Source: Candidatus Gastranaerophilales bacterium
GTDB taxonomy: Bacteria; Bacillota; Clostridia; Lachnospirales; Lachnospiraceae
DNA: 36,998 nucleotides
Assembly: GCA_023663225.1 (NCBI GenBank)
Contig: JAMPHU010000028.1
Location: 1 to 36,998 of the forward strand
Reading direction: 5' to 3'
Each line of letters opens with the position of its first letter. Position 1 is the stretch's first letter. Positions 5,057 to 33,355 of this stretch are shown here, in pieces. The translations under genes were made by a program, and so were the position numbers. The notes under the pieces are model-generated. The model was not told the DNA's origin. It was given only the letters and a program-made list of their open reading frames with translations, and ran no database searches.

Positions 5057-5115
5057 TAGGCGATTGCGAAACACTCAATTCGGATTCCGAAAAACATCGT
5101 TTTGCAAAACGCCTA
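5057..5115 (-). repeat. Minimal copy of the GATTGCGAAAC repeat family
   Basis: A 59-bp element whose ends are inverted repeats (TAGGCGATTGCGAAAC on the left; the right end reversed is TAGGCGTTTTGCAAAACG) and whose centre has the TTCGGA-T-TCCGAA hairpin. Read on the minus strand it matches the left end of the copy at 9289 and the right end of the copy at 12410, so it looks like an internally deleted derivative. Its right end may also supply the -35 (TTGCAA, 5102) for the gene at 5147, with TAAAAT at 5124-5129. Confidence 0.65.
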
Positions 5116-5146: not shown

Positions 5147-5398
5147 ATGCTGGAATTTAAATATGATACGCAGTTGCTTTTGGAGGGAGAAAATCTGGAT
5201 GAAGACGAAATAAATGATTATATTACGGAACATTTCAAAGGGGACTGCCTCTTAGCGGTAGGGGATGAAGAATTAATCAAAATACATTTTCATACGAATG
5301 AACCTTGGAAGATCCTTGAATACTGCTCTACATTGGGAGAAATTTACGATATTGTAATTGAAGACATGGACCGCCAGTCCAGAGGACTTCAGGGCTGA
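5147..5398 (+). CDS. Stand-alone FakA/DAK-type small domain protein
   Basis: An 83-residue protein that matches, in pattern, the middle region of FakA-type (YloV) fatty-acid kinase and related DAK proteins: a start like LEFKYDTQLLLEGENLDEDE, then GDCLLAVGDEELIKIHFHTNEP, then LGEIYDIVIEDMDRQ. In the full enzymes this follows the DhaL ATP-binding domain and a DegV-like domain completes the pathway; neither is encoded here. The GTG at 5144 is possible, but the ATG at 5147 has AAGGGG at better spacing. It is the only plus-strand gene left of the origin, so it opposes replication. Its function alone is unknown; regulation of a kinase made elsewhere is one guess. Confidence 0.75.
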   Translation: MLEFKYDTQLLLEGENLDEDEINDYITEHFKGDCLLAVGDEELIKIHFHTNEPWKILEYCSTLGEIYDIVIEDMDRQSRGLQG

Positions 5399-5487
5399 TA
5401 AATCGACATTTTGGGAATGTTTCACACAGATTTCTTGTGATATTCTTACAATGTTTCACGGATTTCTTACAATATCTAGGGTTTTTA

Positions 5488-5503
5488 TGTTTCACGTGAA
5501 ACA
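5488..5503. promoter_or_regulatory. parS site (perfect)
   Basis: TGTTTCACGTGAAACA, an exact 16/16 match to the Bacillus-type parS consensus bound by ParB. It is about 12 kb from oriC. Half-sites TGTTTCAC also occur just upstream at 5418-5425 and 5452-5459, forming a cluster with the site at 5538. Confidence 0.95.
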
Positions 5504-5527
5504 TTATCTTGTGTCTTGATTTTCATA

Positions 5528-5563
5528 AAAAGGGAAATGTTTCACGTGAAACATTTCCCTTTT
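5528..5563. promoter_or_regulatory. parS site within 36-bp perfect palindrome
   Basis: The core 5538-5553 is a perfect parS. Symmetry continues outward as AAAAGGGAAA on the left and TTTCCCTTTT on the right, giving a perfect 36-bp palindrome. Because an A-run and a T-run lie at the outer ends, it could also act as a bidirectional terminator between the convergent genes at 5147 (+) and 5670 (-). Confidence 0.9.
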
Positions 5564-5669: not shown

Positions 5670-6194
5670 TTACCCTAATTCCATTTTATAGAATTTTGCC
5701 TTGAAGGTTTTACTACCGTCCAGTTTTGTGTATTCGCCGTAATGGTCAAATCTCAGTCCGCATTTTTCCATAACCTTGCCAGAACGAGGATTATCTATGG
5801 CATGGTCTGAACACACCTTTTTTACTCCAAGTTTTTTATATGCGAAATCAATAATAGCTTTCATCGCTTCGGTACAATATCCCTTGTGCCAATAATCATA
5901 ATGGAGATTGTATCCTATACCCCAATAATCTTTCATTTGTGCATTGGGACCTATACTCCCTGTTCCGATTACTTTATTTTCTTCTTTCAGAACAAATGCC
6001 CAATTCCACTCTTGTTCGTCATCAAAAGTGGAATTTATCCAATCTATCGTTTGACTAATATCAGTATATGTAGAATATGACATATACTTTGTAACTCTTT
6101 CATCACTGTTCCAACTGAAACAAGCTTCTGCATCATCAAGTGTAATAGGGCGCAAAATTAACCTGTCTGTTTCAATAATAGGTTCCTTATTCAT
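5670..6194 (-). CDS. GNAT N-acetyltransferase (RimJ/RimL type)
   Basis: A 174-residue acetyl-CoA-dependent acyltransferase of the RimJ/RimL-like branch, which acetylates protein N-termini, amino sugars or antibiotics; the substrate cannot be read from sequence. Visible features are the start TDRLILRPITLDDAEACFSW, the acetyl-CoA loop region GIGYNLHYDYWHKGYCTEAMKAI (about 90-115), and the closing DHAIDNPRSGKVMEKCGLRF motif. The ATG has GGAGAG about 7 nt upstream. The gene sits alone, and both its upstream and downstream flanks resemble those of the unrelated gene at 8282-8635 (see findings), which suggests acquisition as a unit. Confidence 0.9.
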   Translation of the reverse strand: MNKEPIIETDRLILRPITLDDAEACFSWNSDERVTKYMSYSTYTDISQTIDWINSTFDDEQEWNWAFVLKEENKVIGTGSIGPNAQMKDYWGIGYNLHYDYWHKGYCTEAMKAIIDFAYKKLGVKKVCSDHAIDNPRSGKVMEKCGLRFDHYGEYTKLDGSKTFKAKFYKMELG

Positions 6195-6280: not shown

Positions 6281-6291
6281 TTTTGCACCGC

Positions 6292-6400
6292 TAAACGTTT
6301 GCAAAAATCCAATTCAGCCAATTCAAATTATAGAGATCGTATATTTGTAAACAGACTCGACAGACCATCGGCACGCAAGGTTATTTTATTATGATTGATG
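6292..6400 (+). repeat. Degenerate, 3'-truncated repeat-family copy
   Basis: The order CGTTTGCAAAAA, CCAATTC, GATCGTATATT, ACAGACTCGACAG and ATGATTGATG..GCATCTTTA parallels the copy at 9289-9420 through its first 120 bp. It then ends at the stop of the GNAT gene at 6409. Identity is low but the block order is preserved. Confidence 0.5.
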
Positions 6401-7375: not shown

Positions 7376-8089
7376 TTACCGTTGTGAAGCGTCCGTCCCA
7401 ACCCAGACAGAATCCAGAATATACTCAAAAGTCTCTTCTATCTCATCCCATACCGAAACATCTACCGAAGCCTCAATATAATAAACGCCGCCAGATTTGG
7501 AAGGTTCTGGCAAGTCTTCCCCATTGAGATTTTCCATAGGATTTTTCAAACTCAATGTCATCCAAAGCGTGTCCTGTATTGTCTCCATATAAGACGTCCC
7601 GGTGATACCATTTGGCAGAGTAAAATGTTCTATGGTCACGCCTGTAGCACACATGCCAAGAAAAGTAGAGAGATAGGAGAGTTCAAAAACCGCATCCGGA
7701 TATTGCTCCGGCCAAAACAAAATAGAACAAACCGCAAGCCCGTCCTCTTTCTCTCTTTCTTCCACTGTCTTTATCTCATAATCCCAGCCGTCAGGAATAT
7801 CAAGAGAAAGATACAAATCTTCATAACGATATTCCGCCGTCAAGCTTCCGCACTGTACAAAACAAAATTCCGCCGATTCATCGCAAATCGTATCACTTTC
7901 CGCAATCCCCATATTCTCATCCGGATTATCCCCTTCAGAATCTTTCTGTTCTGTCTGCGCCGACGCTTCAACAGCTAAATAATCTTCCAAACTTAAGAAA
8001 CCGTCCTCTTCATCCTCCGGACTATTGTTACATCCTGCCAAAGCAAAAGCACAAAAAATTCCTGCCAAAAATACAAAACATTTTTTCAC
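7376..8089 (-). CDS. Hypothetical lipoprotein
   Basis: A 237-residue secreted lipoprotein: a basic start (MKK), a hydrophobic core FVFLAGIFCAFA and a lipobox LAGC give a lipidated cysteine near residue 20, followed by an acidic low-complexity linker (about 22-70) and a beta-rich C-terminal domain. I recognise no family. The ATG at 8098 is flush against GGAG, leaving no spacer; a GTG at 8089, nine nt from GGAG, gives the canonical MKK signal-peptide start and is my choice. A near-perfect parS (8082-8097) covers this start region, so ParB binding could affect expression. It probably heads an operon with the DUF6483-like and GNAT genes. Confidence 0.8.
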   Translation of the reverse strand: MKKCFVFLAGIFCAFALAGCNNSPEDEEDGFLSLEDYLAVEASAQTEQKDSEGDNPDENMGIAESDTICDESAEFCFVQCGSLTAEYRYEDLYLSLDIPDGWDYEIKTVEEREKEDGLAVCSILFWPEQYPDAVFELSYLSTFLGMCATGVTIEHFTLPNGITGTSYMETIQDTLWMTLSLKNPMENLNGEDLPEPSKSGGVYYIEASVDVSVWDEIEETFEYILDSVWVGTDASQR

Positions 8090-8097
8090 GTGAAACA
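8082..8097. promoter_or_regulatory. parS site (15 of 16) over a lipoprotein start
   Basis: TTTTTCACGTGAAACA differs from the parS consensus only at the second base. It covers the two possible start codons of the lipoprotein gene and is about 2.5 kb from the double parS at 5488/5538. Confidence 0.85.
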
Positions 8098-8229
8098 TCT
8101 CCTTCGATAAATTTCTTAGATATTAATATTGCTGTCCATGCAAACTGCTTGGATCATTGCATTGCTCTAAGAAATAGAACGAATAAAATCCAAAAAAGTT
8201 TTAAAAATTTTATCTAATTTTATTTTATC

Positions 8230-9256: not shown

Positions 9257-9288
9257 TACGCATCTCCTCCTTATCATTTATCATACAT

Positions 9289-9467
9289 GGCGTTTGCGAA
9301 ACCATATTTTTCGGAATCCGAATTGTGCAGATTGTATATTCATGAACAGACCCTAGCGAATCGCCCGTACACAACGTAACTTCGTTACGATTGATTTGTA
9401 TGTTAGCATCTTTAGCAATTCTTGGCGAAACACTCTATGGTGCAAGCCTTAGAAGTGCTTCTCACCT
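9289..9467 (+). repeat. Truncated copy of the intergenic repeat family
   Basis: Matches the full copy at 12410 in order: GCGAAAC, TCGGAATCCGAATTGTGC, GATTGTATATTCAT, CAGACCCTAGCGAA, a variable hairpin (here CGTAAC-TTC-GTTACG), then CTTGGCGAA..CAC..CTATGGTGCAAGCC and GAAGTGCTTCTCACCT. The right-hand terminal repeat is missing; divergent sequence runs to the rsmG stop. No coding gene occupies 9257-9543. Confidence 0.75.
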
Positions 9468-12272: not shown

Positions 12273-12303
12273 TTCTTCTCCTCTTTTACGAATGGAATCC
12301 ATT

Positions 12304-12390
12304 AGACGATTGCAAAAACCTACTTTTGGCAATCTGAATGTGCAATTTGCACAATGACTCTTTGCAAATAGAATCGTTTTGCAAATGTCT
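12304..12390 (+). repeat. 87-bp mini copy of intergenic repeat
   Basis: Left end AGACGATTGCAAAA pairs with right end TTTTGCAAATGTCT. Its first 30 bp match the left end of the 262-bp element and its last 60 bp (GAATGTGCAATTTGCAC, AATGACTCTTTGCAAATA, GAATCG) match that element's right end, so it is an internal-deletion derivative. Confidence 0.75.
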
Positions 12391-12409
12391 ATGAATGGAA
12401 TCTATAGTT

Positions 12410-12671
12410 GATTGCGAAACAATATTTTTTGGCAATCCGAATTGTGCGGATTGTATATTCATAAGCAGACCCTAGCGAACCGTTGGCACTTAGGCGCTGT
12501 ATTTTAGCGCCTTGAGGTGAGATTTAGCACTTCTTGGCGAAGCACCCTATGGTGCAAGCCTTAGAAGTGCTTCTCACCTTGCCGCTTACGGTGAGGTGGG
12601 AGCGAAAGCGGGTCTGCGTTGAATGTGCAATTTGCACAATGACCCTTTCCAAATAAAATCGTTTCGCAATC
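12410..12671 (+). repeat. 262-bp structured element with terminal inverted repeats
   Basis: Bounded by perfect 11-bp inverted repeats GATTGCGAAAC (12410-12420) and GTTTCGCAATC (12661-12671). Inside are nested paired segments: GCAGACCC (12465) with GGGTCTGC (12610); AGGCGCT (12492) with AGCGCCT (12506); and a long hairpin 12515-12579 with arms AGGTGAG/CTCACCT, AGCACTTC/GAAGTGCT, GGC/GCC and GCACC/GGTGC around a CTAT loop. It has no ORF. It looks like a non-autonomous mobile element (MITE-like) and/or a structured RNA. Confidence 0.75.
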
Positions 12672-12691
12672 GTCTGAAATGGAATCCATTC

Positions 12692-17190: not shown

Positions 17191-17239
17191 GCAAAATCCC
17201 GAAAAATAAAGGTTTTCCATACAAAAAAATTTTGTAAAA

Positions 17240-17510
17240 AATATTTATACACAGAGATATCCACATTTTTTTACTAATATTCACTTATCCACAAATTGTT
17301 CATTACTTGTGGATAAATATTTTATAACTGAATTTATTTTCTAAAAAAATGTGTAAAAGATCAAAAAATCCTATTTTAGACAATCTGTATAACAGGGATT
17401 TCTTATCCACCGATTTTTTATCATATCCACACAAGAAATTCAAAAACAAAATTATTCACATAGTTATGAACAGTTTGTGGATAAGATTATTCCATTCATG
17501 TTCATAACTA
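17240..17510. other. Chromosomal origin oriC with DnaA boxes
   Basis: Three perfect DnaA boxes TTATCCACA occur at 17285-17293 (+), 17308-17316 (-) and 17476-17484 (-). One-mismatch boxes are at 17245-17253, 17257-17265, 17403-17411, 17423-17431 and 17452-17460. The region is very AT-rich, lies between rpmH and dnaA, and marks the point where gene orientation diverges. A further TTATACACA (19324-19332) touches the dnaN start, consistent with a bipartite Bacillus-like origin around dnaA. Confidence 0.9.
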
Positions 17511-29375: not shown

Positions 29376-31385
29376 ATGCCTACCTTTATTGATTTGTTTG
29401 CCGGAGCGGGCGGCTTCAGCGAGGGATTTCTTCAAGCGGAATATCAGGGACGGCAGTTTGATTTTCTTCTGGCCAGCGATATCAACCCGACCTGTGAAGT
29501 GACCCACAGGATGAGATATAACCGCCAGCTTGGACTTGAGACGGAGTTTCTGACCAAAGACATTACGGATCCGGATTTTTCGGAAGTGTTGATGAACAAA
29601 ATACATAGAAGCAGCGGCGGCAGACCCGTTGACGTCCTGCTCGGAGGACCCCCCTGCCAATCTTTCAGTCTTGCGGGCTGCCGCAAGAAGAACGACAAGA
29701 AAGATGATTTATTTTCCTATTATTTGAAAGTCATTTCCCTCATAAAACCAAAGTATTTTGTCATGGAAAATGTATACGGGATATTGACCAAATATAACGG
29801 AAAGGTGAGAGAACGAATTCTAAACGAAATCAACGGGATCGTGGATGTGGACTCCCTCCTGCAATTTGCCGATTTGTCCGAGCAGTATATCGGAAGGCTG
29901 GATTCGTCGAAACCTTCTTATCTCGAAGGCTATTACGGCTGTCAAAAGCTTAGGATTGCACTCTCCAATGAGCGCATGACGCAGGAGAACAGCCGGGAAT
30001 ATTTGGATGTTTTGGAGACTGTTCAGGACAGTCAGATGACGGATGAACGGAAATCCTATCTCTATCAAGCGATTCTGTTACAAAAGCAGATTGTGGAGAT
30101 TCCGGAATTGGGCGTTTTCACGGATAAGCTGGAAGAGAAGTTTGTGGACGCCTTCCGAAATGACAAAACCGTGACCGAGAAGGAGCGGAATGTGATCCGT
30201 CAGGCTCTGAGGCTGATCAAAGAACAGTACAGAATTTCCGATATCAGCCATGCCGTGAAAAAAGAAATCAATGGCTGTCAGCTAAATGACAGCATTTATC
30301 AGTCAGAATTTGACGATATCACGGACGCTTTGGATTATGACCATATCCTCGACGTCTTTTATGCGGCCTGTGACCGGATCGAGAAGAAAGCCGAGACCCA
30401 GATGCAGAAAGCGGCCACGGCGGAAGTCAAGCTGGCGGTTTCGATTCTCTATGAGAATATACAGGAGACGATCCGTCACATGATCGAATTGATTGTTCCG
30501 GTCTTGACGGCGGAGGAACAGGAGCGTTATCGGGAGATTGCGGATTCCGTCCGCCTATACCATATCAATCGGGAGATTGTTTTAAATGCCTCGGATTATG
30601 GGGTTCCGCAGAACAGACTCCGCGTCGTTTTCATCGGATGCCGGAAGGATCAGCCGTTGATCACGGAGATTCCGCCCACCGTGGACGAGGGAGACAAAGT
30701 AACTACATCGGAAGCGCTGGACGATTTGCTGTTCATCGAAAACAACGCCACGGCTACGGCATATGACGATGCACTGTATGAGCAAGTCAACGAGAACAAG
30801 CCCAGACGGCGCGTACTTGGCCAGACGGCCGCCGCGGCGGACGGGGAACAGAGAACTTATATTGACTGGTCCAAAAGAGGCCGCCTGAATCCCAACCGCT
30901 TTCCAAATATCGGGACGCCCGCTTACACTGCGTCAAATGTCTGGAGCGAGGCGGATGAGGATACCTTTGTCACTATGGAGCTTCCCAACCATCAGACGCC
31001 CAATCAAAATGAGCTGGTGCGGAGGCGGTATGGCCTGATACGGCGGTATGGCAGCTGGGAGGCCGTCAGGGAGGCAGAGCAGGGCAATCCTGTGGCGGAG
31101 ACCAGCAAGCGCAATTACACCTGCCTCTATGCGGACTGCCAAGCGCCTACGATTATGACGCTCGGCGACGATTTTGTGCATTATGGAGACGACCGCTCCC
31201 TGACGGTCAGGGAGATGGCAAGGCTGCAGTCCTTTGACGACAGTTTTGTCTTTCAGGGAAAACGAACCACAGGAGGCGACCGGAGGAAGCTGGAGATTCC
31301 GCAGTATACGCAGGTGGGAAATGCGGTGCCGCCGCTGATGGCTCACGCAATCGCTCTGGAAATCTTAAAGAATATCACATTATAA
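29376..31385 (+). CDS. DNA C5-cytosine methyltransferase, large
   Basis: A 669-residue modification enzyme that transfers a methyl group from SAM to carbon 5 of cytosine, here to protect against the neighbouring endonuclease. Motif I TFIDLFAGAGGFSEGF is at 2-17, motif IV GGPPCQSFSLAG with catalytic Cys near 94, motif VI MENVYGIL near 130, motif VIII DYGVPQNRLRVVFIG near 407, motif IX-like REMARLQSFDDSF near 612 and motif X QVGNAVPPLMAHAIA near 646. The gap between motifs VI and VIII is about 280 residues instead of a few dozen, a large helical insertion. The recognition domain lies between VIII and IX. It converges on the endonuclease gene, overlapping it by six bases. Confidence 0.95.
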   Translation: MPTFIDLFAGAGGFSEGFLQAEYQGRQFDFLLASDINPTCEVTHRMRYNRQLGLETEFLTKDITDPDFSEVLMNKIHRSSGGRPVDVLLGGPPCQSFSLAGCRKKNDKKDDLFSYYLKVISLIKPKYFVMENVYGILTKYNGKVRERILNEINGIVDVDSLLQFADLSEQYIGRLDSSKPSYLEGYYGCQKLRIALSNERMTQENSREYLDVLETVQDSQMTDERKSYLYQAILLQKQIVEIPELGVFTDKLEEKFVDAFRNDKTVTEKERNVIRQALRLIKEQYRISDISHAVKKEINGCQLNDSIYQSEFDDITDALDYDHILDVFYAACDRIEKKAETQMQKAATAEVKLAVSILYENIQETIRHMIELIVPVLTAEEQERYREIADSVRLYHINREIVLNASDYGVPQNRLRVVFIGCRKDQPLITEIPPTVDEGDKVTTSEALDDLLFIENNATATAYDDALYEQVNENKPRRRVLGQTAAAADGEQRTYIDWSKRGRLNPNRFPNIGTPAYTASNVWSEADEDTFVTMELPNHQTPNQNELVRRRYGLIRRYGSWEAVREAEQGNPVAETSKRNYTCLYADCQAPTIMTLGDDFVHYGDDRSLTVREMARLQSFDDSFVFQGKRTTGGDRRKLEIPQYTQVGNAVPPLMAHAIALEILKNITL

Positions 31386-32630
31386 GTCGATCGTCTCGAT
31401 TTCGCCGAACAGCTCCGCCCTTGCATAGGGTTTGATCCGCCAAGCGTTGCCGTGGTTTTTGCCTCCGTAAGCTCCCTCTTTGGTAGTGTAGCCTCTCCAG
31501 TGGTAAGTAATTACCCCGGACTTGATCAGAGACAGGAACATGGAAAACTTCGGCGCGCGGGAAAATTCGATCTCATGGTATCGGAACTGAACCATATCCT
31601 CGCGCCGTCTGCTCTCCGCTTTCACCCACAATGTGGACGGATGTTTTTGGTAAAGCTGCGCCTTTAAGTCCTCGAACGTCCAATAGGCCGCCACTTCCCG
31701 CCGATCGGTGCGGGGATTCTTCCAGACGATATTGACCTCCCCCGCTTCGTCGTTTACCACCAGATAAAATCCCTGATGGTTCTGAGGTGCTTCCAAAGAT
31801 CCGATGGTAATATAGAGGCTGCTATATCCCGGATGTTTGTCGGAATCATAGCCATAGAGTCTGGCGAAGGCCGAAACCCGGTTTTTGTCTTTGGGTTCAT
31901 ATTCTGCCACCCGGGTGCCGTCAAATTGGGGACGAAGCGTAAACAGCGTATCCAAAGTCTGGCTTTCGCCCTTTGATTTCACTTCAATTAGGCCGTCATA
32001 ATCGGCGTCATGGCGGTTGTTGGTTCTGATTCCCAGAAGGTCTTCTAGCGTGTCTCCCACATCTTTCGGTGCGATGGAACCCGGACCTTTGGAATTATCA
32101 TAAAATCCTCCGTGAATGATTTCCCTAAGCCTTGGCTTGATCCGGTAAAACAGACGGGTAATCTCATCGACGCCCACGGCGCTTACGATCTCCCGCTCCG
32201 AAGGAATATTGTGGGTCAGATTGACAAAGTAGATCTGAGGAATCCCATTGTTCCTGCGGAACACGGAAAAATATAAAAGATCTCCCTCGTTGATCTCCCG
32301 CTTCTGCATCCTCTTTTTGACCGTTTCGATCGAGAAACGGCGGTCGCCTCTGCCGTTGGTCACTCTGTAGAATTTCAGGCGGACCGTCTCGGTTTTCCCG
32401 CTTTGGATGAACAAAGCGTCATGCGACACGCCGTATTGTCCCCCGTGGGCAAGCGTATTATAATCCACAAGTCCCCATTGATACAGCAGATCTCTTAAGA
32501 TCCCGTTCGCATCAAGGTTGTTCTTATCGATCATGGTAAAAGTCATTCGGAGCAATGCATATTCCTCATTGCGGTATTTCTGTATCCGGTTGATGATTTC
32601 ACTTTCGTCGGAATAAGGAGTAAAAATCAT
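31380..32630 (-). CDS. MvaI/BcnI-family type II restriction endonuclease
   Basis: A 416-residue endonuclease that should cut unmethylated DNA at a short site. The C-terminal half has DVGDTLEDLLGIRTNNRHDADYDG and LIEVKSK (about 195-218), the MvaI/BcnI form of the PD-(D/E)XK site, followed by TLDTLFTLRPQFDG. MvaI and BcnI cut CCWGG and CCSGG; which site is used here cannot be told from sequence. The N-terminal ~180 residues are an extra domain, perhaps for DNA recognition. The frame is open to 32912, but the ATG at 32630 has AGGGGG at 6-8 nt and removes an overlap with the regulator. It follows the regulator by 22 bp on the same strand. Confidence 0.88.
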   Translation of the reverse strand: MIFTPYSDESEIINRIQKYRNEEYALLRMTFTMIDKNNLDANGILRDLLYQWGLVDYNTLAHGGQYGVSHDALFIQSGKTETVRLKFYRVTNGRGDRRFSIETVKKRMQKREINEGDLLYFSVFRRNNGIPQIYFVNLTHNIPSEREIVSAVGVDEITRLFYRIKPRLREIIHGGFYDNSKGPGSIAPKDVGDTLEDLLGIRTNNRHDADYDGLIEVKSKGESQTLDTLFTLRPQFDGTRVAEYEPKDKNRVSAFARLYGYDSDKHPGYSSLYITIGSLEAPQNHQGFYLVVNDEAGEVNIVWKNPRTDRREVAAYWTFEDLKAQLYQKHPSTLWVKAESRRREDMVQFRYHEIEFSRAPKFSMFLSLIKSGVITYHWRGYTTKEGAYGGKNHGNAWRIKPYARAELFGEIETIDL

Positions 32631-32652
32631 ATAGAGTCCCCCTTGGTTTAAG

Positions 32653-33171
32653 TTAGATTTTTGGTGAAGAGGTGCGGGAAAACAGATCACATAGATCCGC
32701 ATCCGCCGTATAGGCCAAAGCGTCCAGAGTTCGTATACTTGGGTTGGTATATTTGCCTTGAACAATATGGCTGACATGAGATTCGGAAATTCCCGTCTCA
32801 ATGTAGGCCAAAGCCTGATCTTTCCGCAAATACCGCATCCTTTTCCTAAAATTTTCCACGAAGACCAGCAGATAATCATCTTCGGAAAATGAGTCTGTGA
32901 AACACAGCTCATTCTTTATCAAGTTTGTCATAAAATTGCGTGAGAACAGATCCGGAAAGGGAACATTCAATGCGCGCGCCAATTTTAAAGCCGTGTTCAA
33001 GTTGACATTTCGTCTCCCCTGTTCGAGTCTGAGAAGGCTGATTCTGTCATATTCTGCCTTGTAAGCAAGCTCCACCTTAGTCATCTCCCGTGTTTCTCTG
33101 GATCTGCGTATGTTTGCTCCGAAGACGAGCTGGATACTTTCTCTTTGATAATCGTCCCTTTGTCTGGCCAT
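32653..33171 (-). CDS. Double-HTH XRE regulator of the R-M system
   Basis: A 172-residue DNA-binding protein with two XRE-type helix-turn-helix domains. The first, about residues 15-77, reads FGANIRRSRETREMTKVELAYKAEYDRISLLRLEQGRRNVNLNTALKLARALNVPFPDLFSR. The second, about 107-165, is VENFRKRMRYLRKDQALAYIETGISESHVSHIVQGKYTNPSIRTLDALAYTADADLCDLFSR in pieces. Both end LFSR, so an internal duplication is likely. Single-HTH C proteins commonly control R-M timing; this one lies directly before the endonuclease, as a C protein would. The ATG at 33171 has GGAGG upstream and is preferred to 33201. Confidence 0.85.
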   Translation of the reverse strand: MARQRDDYQRESIQLVFGANIRRSRETREMTKVELAYKAEYDRISLLRLEQGRRNVNLNTALKLARALNVPFPDLFSRNFMTNLIKNELCFTDSFSEDDYLLVFVENFRKRMRYLRKDQALAYIETGISESHVSHIVQGKYTNPSIRTLDALAYTADADLCDLFSRTSSPKI

Positions 33172-33355
33172 GGGGATCACCTCCGTCAACCGTCCGCGCA
33201 AGCATGGATCAATACTCGCGGGTAATCAAATCACATCTGGCATTTTTAATTGATTTTAATATTCTTTATTATATACCAATTACCACTATATATTTGTAAT
33301 ATAACTATCATTTTAGAGGGAATGAAAAATTTTATATGAAAACTGCGGATGAATT
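33172..33355 (-). promoter_or_regulatory. AT-rich promoter region of the regulator
   Basis: A minus-strand TATAAT (33268-33273) is the best -10; the -35 is weak (CAAATA at 33291). No classic GACTnnnAGTC C-box is seen. The leader before the regulator is about 90 nt. Confidence 0.4.

Follow-up and report, generated by a model that had tools for sequence, protein, structure and literature searches.

A family of miniature inverted-repeat transposable elements in Lachnospiraceae with a conserved folded core that probably passes between transposon chassis

Miniature inverted-repeat transposable elements (MITEs) are usually seen as decayed transposons that retain little beyond their ends. The small dispersed repeats of Nostoc and the double-hairpin elements of fungal mitochondria keep their structure as their sequence drifts and nest in mini-transposons; they are much smaller than the elements described here. 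In this study, MITE-like repeats were investigated in a 36,998-nt stretch of DNA (the window, to the whole of which all window positions refer) from a draft Lachnospiraceae genome (G000; 94.5% complete, 111 contigs), together with a folded core of ~97 nt that their intact relatives enclose. With type II MITEs, as presented in the available text of PMC10969869, these repeats share short length, lack of a transposase gene, target duplications, a mostly intergenic position, internal deletions and, as far as compared here, a similarity to an insertion sequence (IS) at the ends only. Unlike the type II MITEs of that text, two types with unrelated ends and duplication lengths carry one and the same folded core, which also occurs without recognised ends. 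REPINs, which belong to the system of repetitive extragenic palindromic (REP) sequences and REP-associated tyrosine transposases (RAYTs), resemble them, according to the sections of PMC3116915 consulted, as high-copy intergenic hairpins with compensatory changes in part of the hairpin. By the same sections, REPINs have conserved ends and a variable middle. The present elements show the opposite, a conserved centre between variable arms; they also have target duplications and showed no association with RAYTs. REPs tagged with GTAG and CGTC (PMC3733652, main text in part) may be comparable, as CGTC-like and GTAG-like tetranucleotides stand at the base of the central hairpin here; at 20-40 bp, they are unlike the ~97-nt core. 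The terms Firmicutes, Clostridi and Lachnospir are absent from that main text. Small mobile sequences are reviewed in PMC2229807 (seen in excerpt). No description of the family was found in the literature searched, the coverage of which leaves out most subscription journals.

The window repeats are members of a type II MITE family with a conserved folded core of ~97 nt; in the overall reading, which we consider very probable, this core is a REP-like module that passes between chassis. That the repeats are MITEs had been proposed in an original prediction made from the window alone, and this was borne out by copies throughout the genome, by target duplications far above control and by an autonomous element with the same ends. 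The family ends are imperfect 16-bp terminal inverted repeats (TIRs; TAGGYRWTTGCGAAAC, here TIR1). In a DNA search, 72 matching stretches were detected in the draft genome of the window (E up to 10, the weakest at chance level); these lie across the whole draft, so that the copies are not limited to one small region as had been believed. Among the collected loci, 87 non-redundant elements (the IS described below included) carry both TIR1 ends with at most three mismatches each. A flanking direct repeat scoring at least 7 was detected in 28 of these 87 elements, with a length of 9-14 bp, mostly 10-13 bp, and in the control, in which left and right flanks of different elements were paired, 0.1% reached this score.

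An autonomous element sharing these ends, for which the original prediction had called, was found in a relative (G061), where they bound an IS of 1,769 bp (L185:522-2290) that encodes a transposase of 490 aa and is flanked by an exact 13-bp duplication, ATTTTGTAGCCCC. The same ends surround related transposase genes in G005, where the gene is split into two frames, and in G016. The G061 transposase carries a DUF772 domain (PF05598); matches to it at E 1e-20 were obtained in six of 99 genomes, and no solved structure matched it at E 0.001. The likeness between the elements and the IS is limited to the ends, the interiors having been compared by eye only.

An intact element of ~207 bp is a long palindrome, the centre of which is formed by the ~97-nt core with its orientation-specific bulges. 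This core, which was missed in the first reading of the window, was derived by aligning copies of several genomes. It comprises a closing stem (P1, GCAGAC/GTCTGC), a variable P2, P3 with CTTAG/CTTAYG internal loops, the P4 hairpin and, closed by a GNRA-type loop, a further small hairpin. Thirty-five core rows were kept, of which 27 were used for the first structure and 26 are distinct; later, 109 of 118 rows were distinct. Changes on both sides were observed in 22 of 33 pairs in a MAFFT alignment of the 26 distinct rows, which was not fitted to the model, and in 26 of 33 pairs in an alignment of the 109 distinct rows, which was fitted to the model and leans towards it. The latter alignment held 535 double-changed cells, compared with 138.7 after shuffling and 59-117 when the partners were slid. 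The loop was GNRA in 102 of 104 scored copies (109 distinct rows, five unscorable), the remaining two having GACA and AAAA, and the loop-closing pair was changed in six. The foot of the central hairpin is framed by variants of the tetranucleotides CGTC/CGCC on one strand and GTAG/GTAA/GCAG on the other. The core is mostly intergenic, with two rows flagged within a long open reading frame (ORF). Both the GNRA loop and the asymmetric bulges demand a strand-specific reading.

The same core is carried by a second type of MITE, which has different ends (GTAACAGTTYAGCC, TIR2). TIR2 ends (TAACAGTTYAGCC) were found at 60 places in the genome of the window and at 105 in G012, compared with 0 and 1 for a reversed control, and were absent in two of ten genomes searched. 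In a pattern test of elements with both ends, the core was present in 64 of 87 TIR1 and 13 of 20 TIR2 elements. A perfect duplication flanks nine of the 20 TIR2 elements; it measures 8 bp in eight of them and 7 bp in the ninth, and the control gave 0 in slightly fewer than 2,000. Further 8-bp cases appeared when the ends were matched less strictly. That ends and duplication lengths differ between the TIR1 and TIR2 types suggests two different enzymes for their movement. An autonomous TIR2 partner was not found, as no TIR2 pair lay 1-3 kb apart among the places listed. The core was moreover detected in palindromes in which neither end was recognised (G016, G032 and other genomes), and several of the G032 copies seem to lie inside terminator-like hairpins. 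An origin of the locus-specific outer arms in G032 by inverted duplication of the target was considered; none of 60 relatives searched was near enough to G032 to show an empty site.

A TIR2 end was also seen at about base 40-57 of the G000 contigs C4, C26, C33, C42, C96, C97 and C111, and the assembly seems to break within TIR2 repeats. Near the core, another conserved palindrome-like sequence, TTTGCGGGT...ACCCGCAA, was noticed in two Lachnospiraceae genomes (L401, ~2807-2890; L381, ~5287-5370).

Within the window, the following parts of the family were assigned.

12405 to 12676, + strand: large MITE copy, 272 bp including TIRs; the 262-bp element of the original prediction is 12410 to 12671
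12405 to 12420, + strand: left TIR of the large copy, TAGTTGATTGCGAAAC; the TIR consensus is the same as that of the autonomous IS in L185
12661 to 12676, + strand: right TIR of the large copy, GTTTCGCAATCGTCTG
12441 to 12461, + strand: left palindromic arm adjoining the core; the homologous arms covary across 34 G017 copies
12620 to 12640, + strand: right palindromic arm, from the fold and from homologous-arm covariation in G017
12465 to 12513, + strand: 5' part of the core with P1 (GCAGAC), P2, the 5' strand of P3 and the P4 hairpin, from alignment to the intact copy L004
12514 to 12580, + strand: module B, a second palindrome inside the core that replaces the 3' strand of P3
12600 to 12617, + strand: 3' part of the core with the GNRA-type hairpin GAGCGAAAGCG and the P1 strand GTCTGC
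12303 to 12391, + strand: small MITE copy of 89 bp that has the TIRs and the right arm and lacks the core by deletion
12290 to 12302, no strand: target duplication copy 1, GAATGGAATCCAT
12392 to 12404, no strand: target duplication copy 2, TGAATGGAATCTA
12677 to 12689, no strand: target duplication copy 3, AAATGGAATCCAT
5057 to 5115, + strand: minimal copy, 59 bp, two TIRs with 27 bp in between
9288 to 9467, + strand: truncated copy with left TIR, left arm, degenerate centre and module B, without the right end
6286 to 6400, + strand: decayed left half of an element, recognisable by alignment only

Most of these repeats had been noticed beforehand, with partly different bounds. A 262-bp element with perfect 11-bp ends and an adjacent 87-bp version had been described; both repeats are real, the ends being imperfect 16-bp TIRs and the elements measuring 272 bp and 89 bp (12303-12391). 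Three copies of a direct repeat do flank and separate the two elements, at 12290-12302, 12392-12404 and 12677-12689, and the best flanking repeat matches at 12 of 13 positions for the small element and at 10 of 11 for the large one. The 59-bp minimal copy was recovered at exactly 5057-5115, the truncated copy given as 9289-9467 begins one position earlier, and that given as 6292-6400 is present as the decayed left half. With 59-272 bp, the window elements are too short to hold a transposase gene, in line with the earlier statement that no transposase is present. The stretch 12402-12680 folds as RNA with -137.3 kcal/mol, compared with a mean of -76.0 kcal/mol for dinucleotide shuffles (z = -12.0).

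The 262-bp copy had been regarded as the full form, which did not hold. Compared with a 207-bp copy from the same genome (L004), a 67-bp palindrome (module B) replaces one strand of its central stem, and five loci (L035, L036, L044, L045 and L050, in G036 and G001) carry module B but no other part of the element. With module B inside the core here and on its own elsewhere, the 262-bp form is best read as derived by nesting from a ~207-bp element that took up a second palindrome in its centre. The 89-bp form is best read as having lost the core through deletion, and the small copies in general would be internal deletions.

Sites without the element were sought in relatives, where short gaps lacking it were found in some cases. 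The gap between mnmG and mnmE measures 419 nt in the window. At this locus 60 relatives were matched (~64-70% identical over whole-length matches) and 29 loci were fetched, of which 13 had mnmG beside mnmE and 16 were unreadable. In ten of the 13 the gap was 2-95 nt, too short for the element (start codons being chosen by script), which is evidence from gap lengths only; it was longer in three, in one of them because the match spans part of mnmE only. At two other insertions (L339/L095 compared with L036, and L142 compared with L362) the orthologous gap was short and no palindrome was seen, in relatives ~78-86% identical.

With the core model, 85 matches were obtained in the genome of the window at E 0.01; 150 of 767 candidates were scored, and the 85 include two truncated by a contig end and one or more overlapping pairs. 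Core matches at E 0.001 were present in 51 of 117 genomes, namely in 51 of 73 within the genus label and in none of the 44 that belong to other genera of the order. A class-wide scan at E 1e-5 gave matches in seven of 291 genomes: seven of ten from the same family (the window's own included) and none of 281 others. Since 35 and 14 candidates per genome were scored in the 117- and 291-genome scans, copy counts from these are lower bounds. In GTDB contigs, the exact pattern occurred in at least 115 stretches; among the 80 listed, most are named Lachnospiraceae, and the genera include Mediterraneibacter, Acetatifactor, Kineothrix, Clostridium and Blautia. The exact pattern was also looked for in viral_contigs as a sign of phage carriage, with 0 stretches found.

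Five of these 80 (L305, L333, L347, L373 and L378) come from a metagenome-assembled genome labelled Muribaculaceae, which is perhaps mislabelled or a mixed bin.

The arms that enclose the core vary in sequence between copies and remain largely paired. The arm-to-arm alignment score exceeded 12 in 241 of 264 cores, the other 23 being left out because they lay too near the locus end or scored below 12; with up to 300 shuffled right arms, the score never exceeded 11.9. In 34 G017 copies, 715 of 748 arm cells were Watson-Crick pairs. In the orthologous copies L303 and L306, three neighbouring arm changes were all compensated, one of them as a transversion pair, and 13 single changes were found elsewhere. 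Six orthologous pairs together showed seven compensated and 40 single changes, and their divergence was lower at paired (54/806) than at unpaired sites (51/454).

In the same pair of loci, L306 has at ~5794-5960 a strongly folded stretch, in one Mediterraneibacter genome, that is largely missing from the neighbour L303; it is not this core.

Several results weigh against the interpretation of the repeats as one MITE family with a conserved strand-specific core. A clear duplication is absent in 59 of 87 TIR1 and 11 of 20 TIR2 elements. The G061 transposase is IS1182-like with an NCBIfam IS1182 score of 72.9 bits, far below the cut-off of 270. At E 1e-20 it had no match in the genome of the window or in 92 further genomes of the 99 searched, among them high-copy G017; as the window's genome is a draft, a copy may have been missed there. 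The 85 core matches do not include the large window copy, whose core is interrupted: because module B replaces the 3' strand of P3, the core model does not match it at E 0.01, and kin with module B in the same genome match only at E ~0.005-0.007. No Rfam 15 family scored above its gathering score in the window, and a search of five loci with a permissive threshold gave one chance-level match far under its gathering score. Wobble pairs do not mark an RNA strand, with 6 G-U and 15 A-C in G017 arms; over all arms, 403 G-U and 338 A-C do not clearly favour the transcript strand. In the core alignment, A-C cells outnumbered G-U after exclusion of the conserved loop-closing G-U, in part owing to misregistration of P2. 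Finally, orientation to genes was not clearly biased (32 and 22 co-directional, 12 convergent, 9 divergent), based on 75 rows with neighbours called on both sides by crude gene calls, many of the loci having 300 bp of flank only.

A DUF772/IS1182-like transposase would move TIR1 copies in trans, making staggered cuts ~13 bp apart. For the core, we think it most likely that it is a separate REP-like folded module which moves from one mini-transposon chassis to another through nested insertion or recombination, and which would be kept because one strand must fold, either as a transcript or as single-stranded DNA. Between these two, we lean slightly towards the core acting within the RNA of the intergenic region around it. 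Such a structured non-coding RNA or untranslated-region hairpin, selected in the transcript and with the MITE as its vehicle, is a serious candidate that still falls short of an even chance. It agrees with the GNRA loop in 102 of 104 copies, the strong covariation, the mostly intergenic position and the lower divergence at paired sites (54/806 compared with 51/454), but not with the fact that G-U does not clearly exceed A-C in arms or core, the occurrence of both orientations relative to genes and the absence of an Rfam family. A cis-regulatory element with fixed orientation was unsupported by the 32 and 22 co-directional cases. Only slightly weaker is the alternative that the core folds as single-stranded DNA and in this form signals its own mobility, in the manner of REPINs or the ends of IS200/IS605, and inserts into MITEs. 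Here the missing wobble asymmetry would be expected. The presence of one core both in two TIR chassis and in palindromes whose ends were not recognised would fit, as would the CGTC-like and GTAG/GTAA/GCAG tetranucleotides, which frame the hairpin in a way reminiscent of tagged REPs (PMC3733652, in part). However, no core-only insertion with defined limits came to light, and Y1 (RAYT-type) transposases were detected in 15 of the 51 genomes of the genus that have the core and in 10 of the 22 that lack it, and in none of the high-copy genomes G000, G012, G017 and G027; a RAYT partner was rejected as a requirement on these 15/51 and 10/22 counts. The more specific proposal that the core is an independently mobile, strand-specific Lachnospiraceae element without an enzyme of its own, which colonised unrelated chassis and whose arms drift freely, appears rather unlikely.

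It is improbable, too, that a single old palindromic element gave rise to all types, the TIRs having been swapped by recombination in a core conserved only as recombination hotspot or binding site. In G000, L009:1601-1768 does combine two arm types, one in its left half and another in its right half, and query positions 25-99 of the window element (inner arm and core) are 81-88% identical to G000 copies without its TIR; common descent leaves unexplained why the loop is so strict and why the asymmetric bulges are maintained. We give a similarly low chance to template switching within palindromes, as opposed to selection, as the source of the arm covariation. The three neighbouring compensated changes of L303 and L306, including the transversion pair, and four compensated arm positions that distinguish L048 and L053 of G027, with identical core sequence, are what such switching would produce, but L303 and L306 also differ by their 13 single changes, the six pairs have 40 single against seven compensated changes, and the asymmetric core bulges persist. 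The lower divergence at paired sites favours, without proof, selection on pairing over free template switching.

One orientation-specific fold of ~97 nt thus occurs on two MITE types across part of a major family of gut bacteria, with dozens of core matches in several genomes. This makes it testable whether a non-coding palindrome can by itself be a mobile unit, or a cargo that pays for its ride.

Three further regions of the window drew attention. Palindromes of the form TTTCACGTGAAAC recur at 5487-5560 and 8068-8098, adjoining parA/parB-like ORFs, and resemble parS sites. Inverted repeats with TTATCCACA-like motifs at 17213-17485 lie directly upstream of a dnaA-like ORF, and this segment is the likely replication origin. 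At 29376-33201, an ORF resembling C5 DNA methyltransferases adjoins a convergent ORF and a helix-turn-helix-like ORF, an arrangement that, judged by the ORF sequences, looks like a restriction-modification unit.
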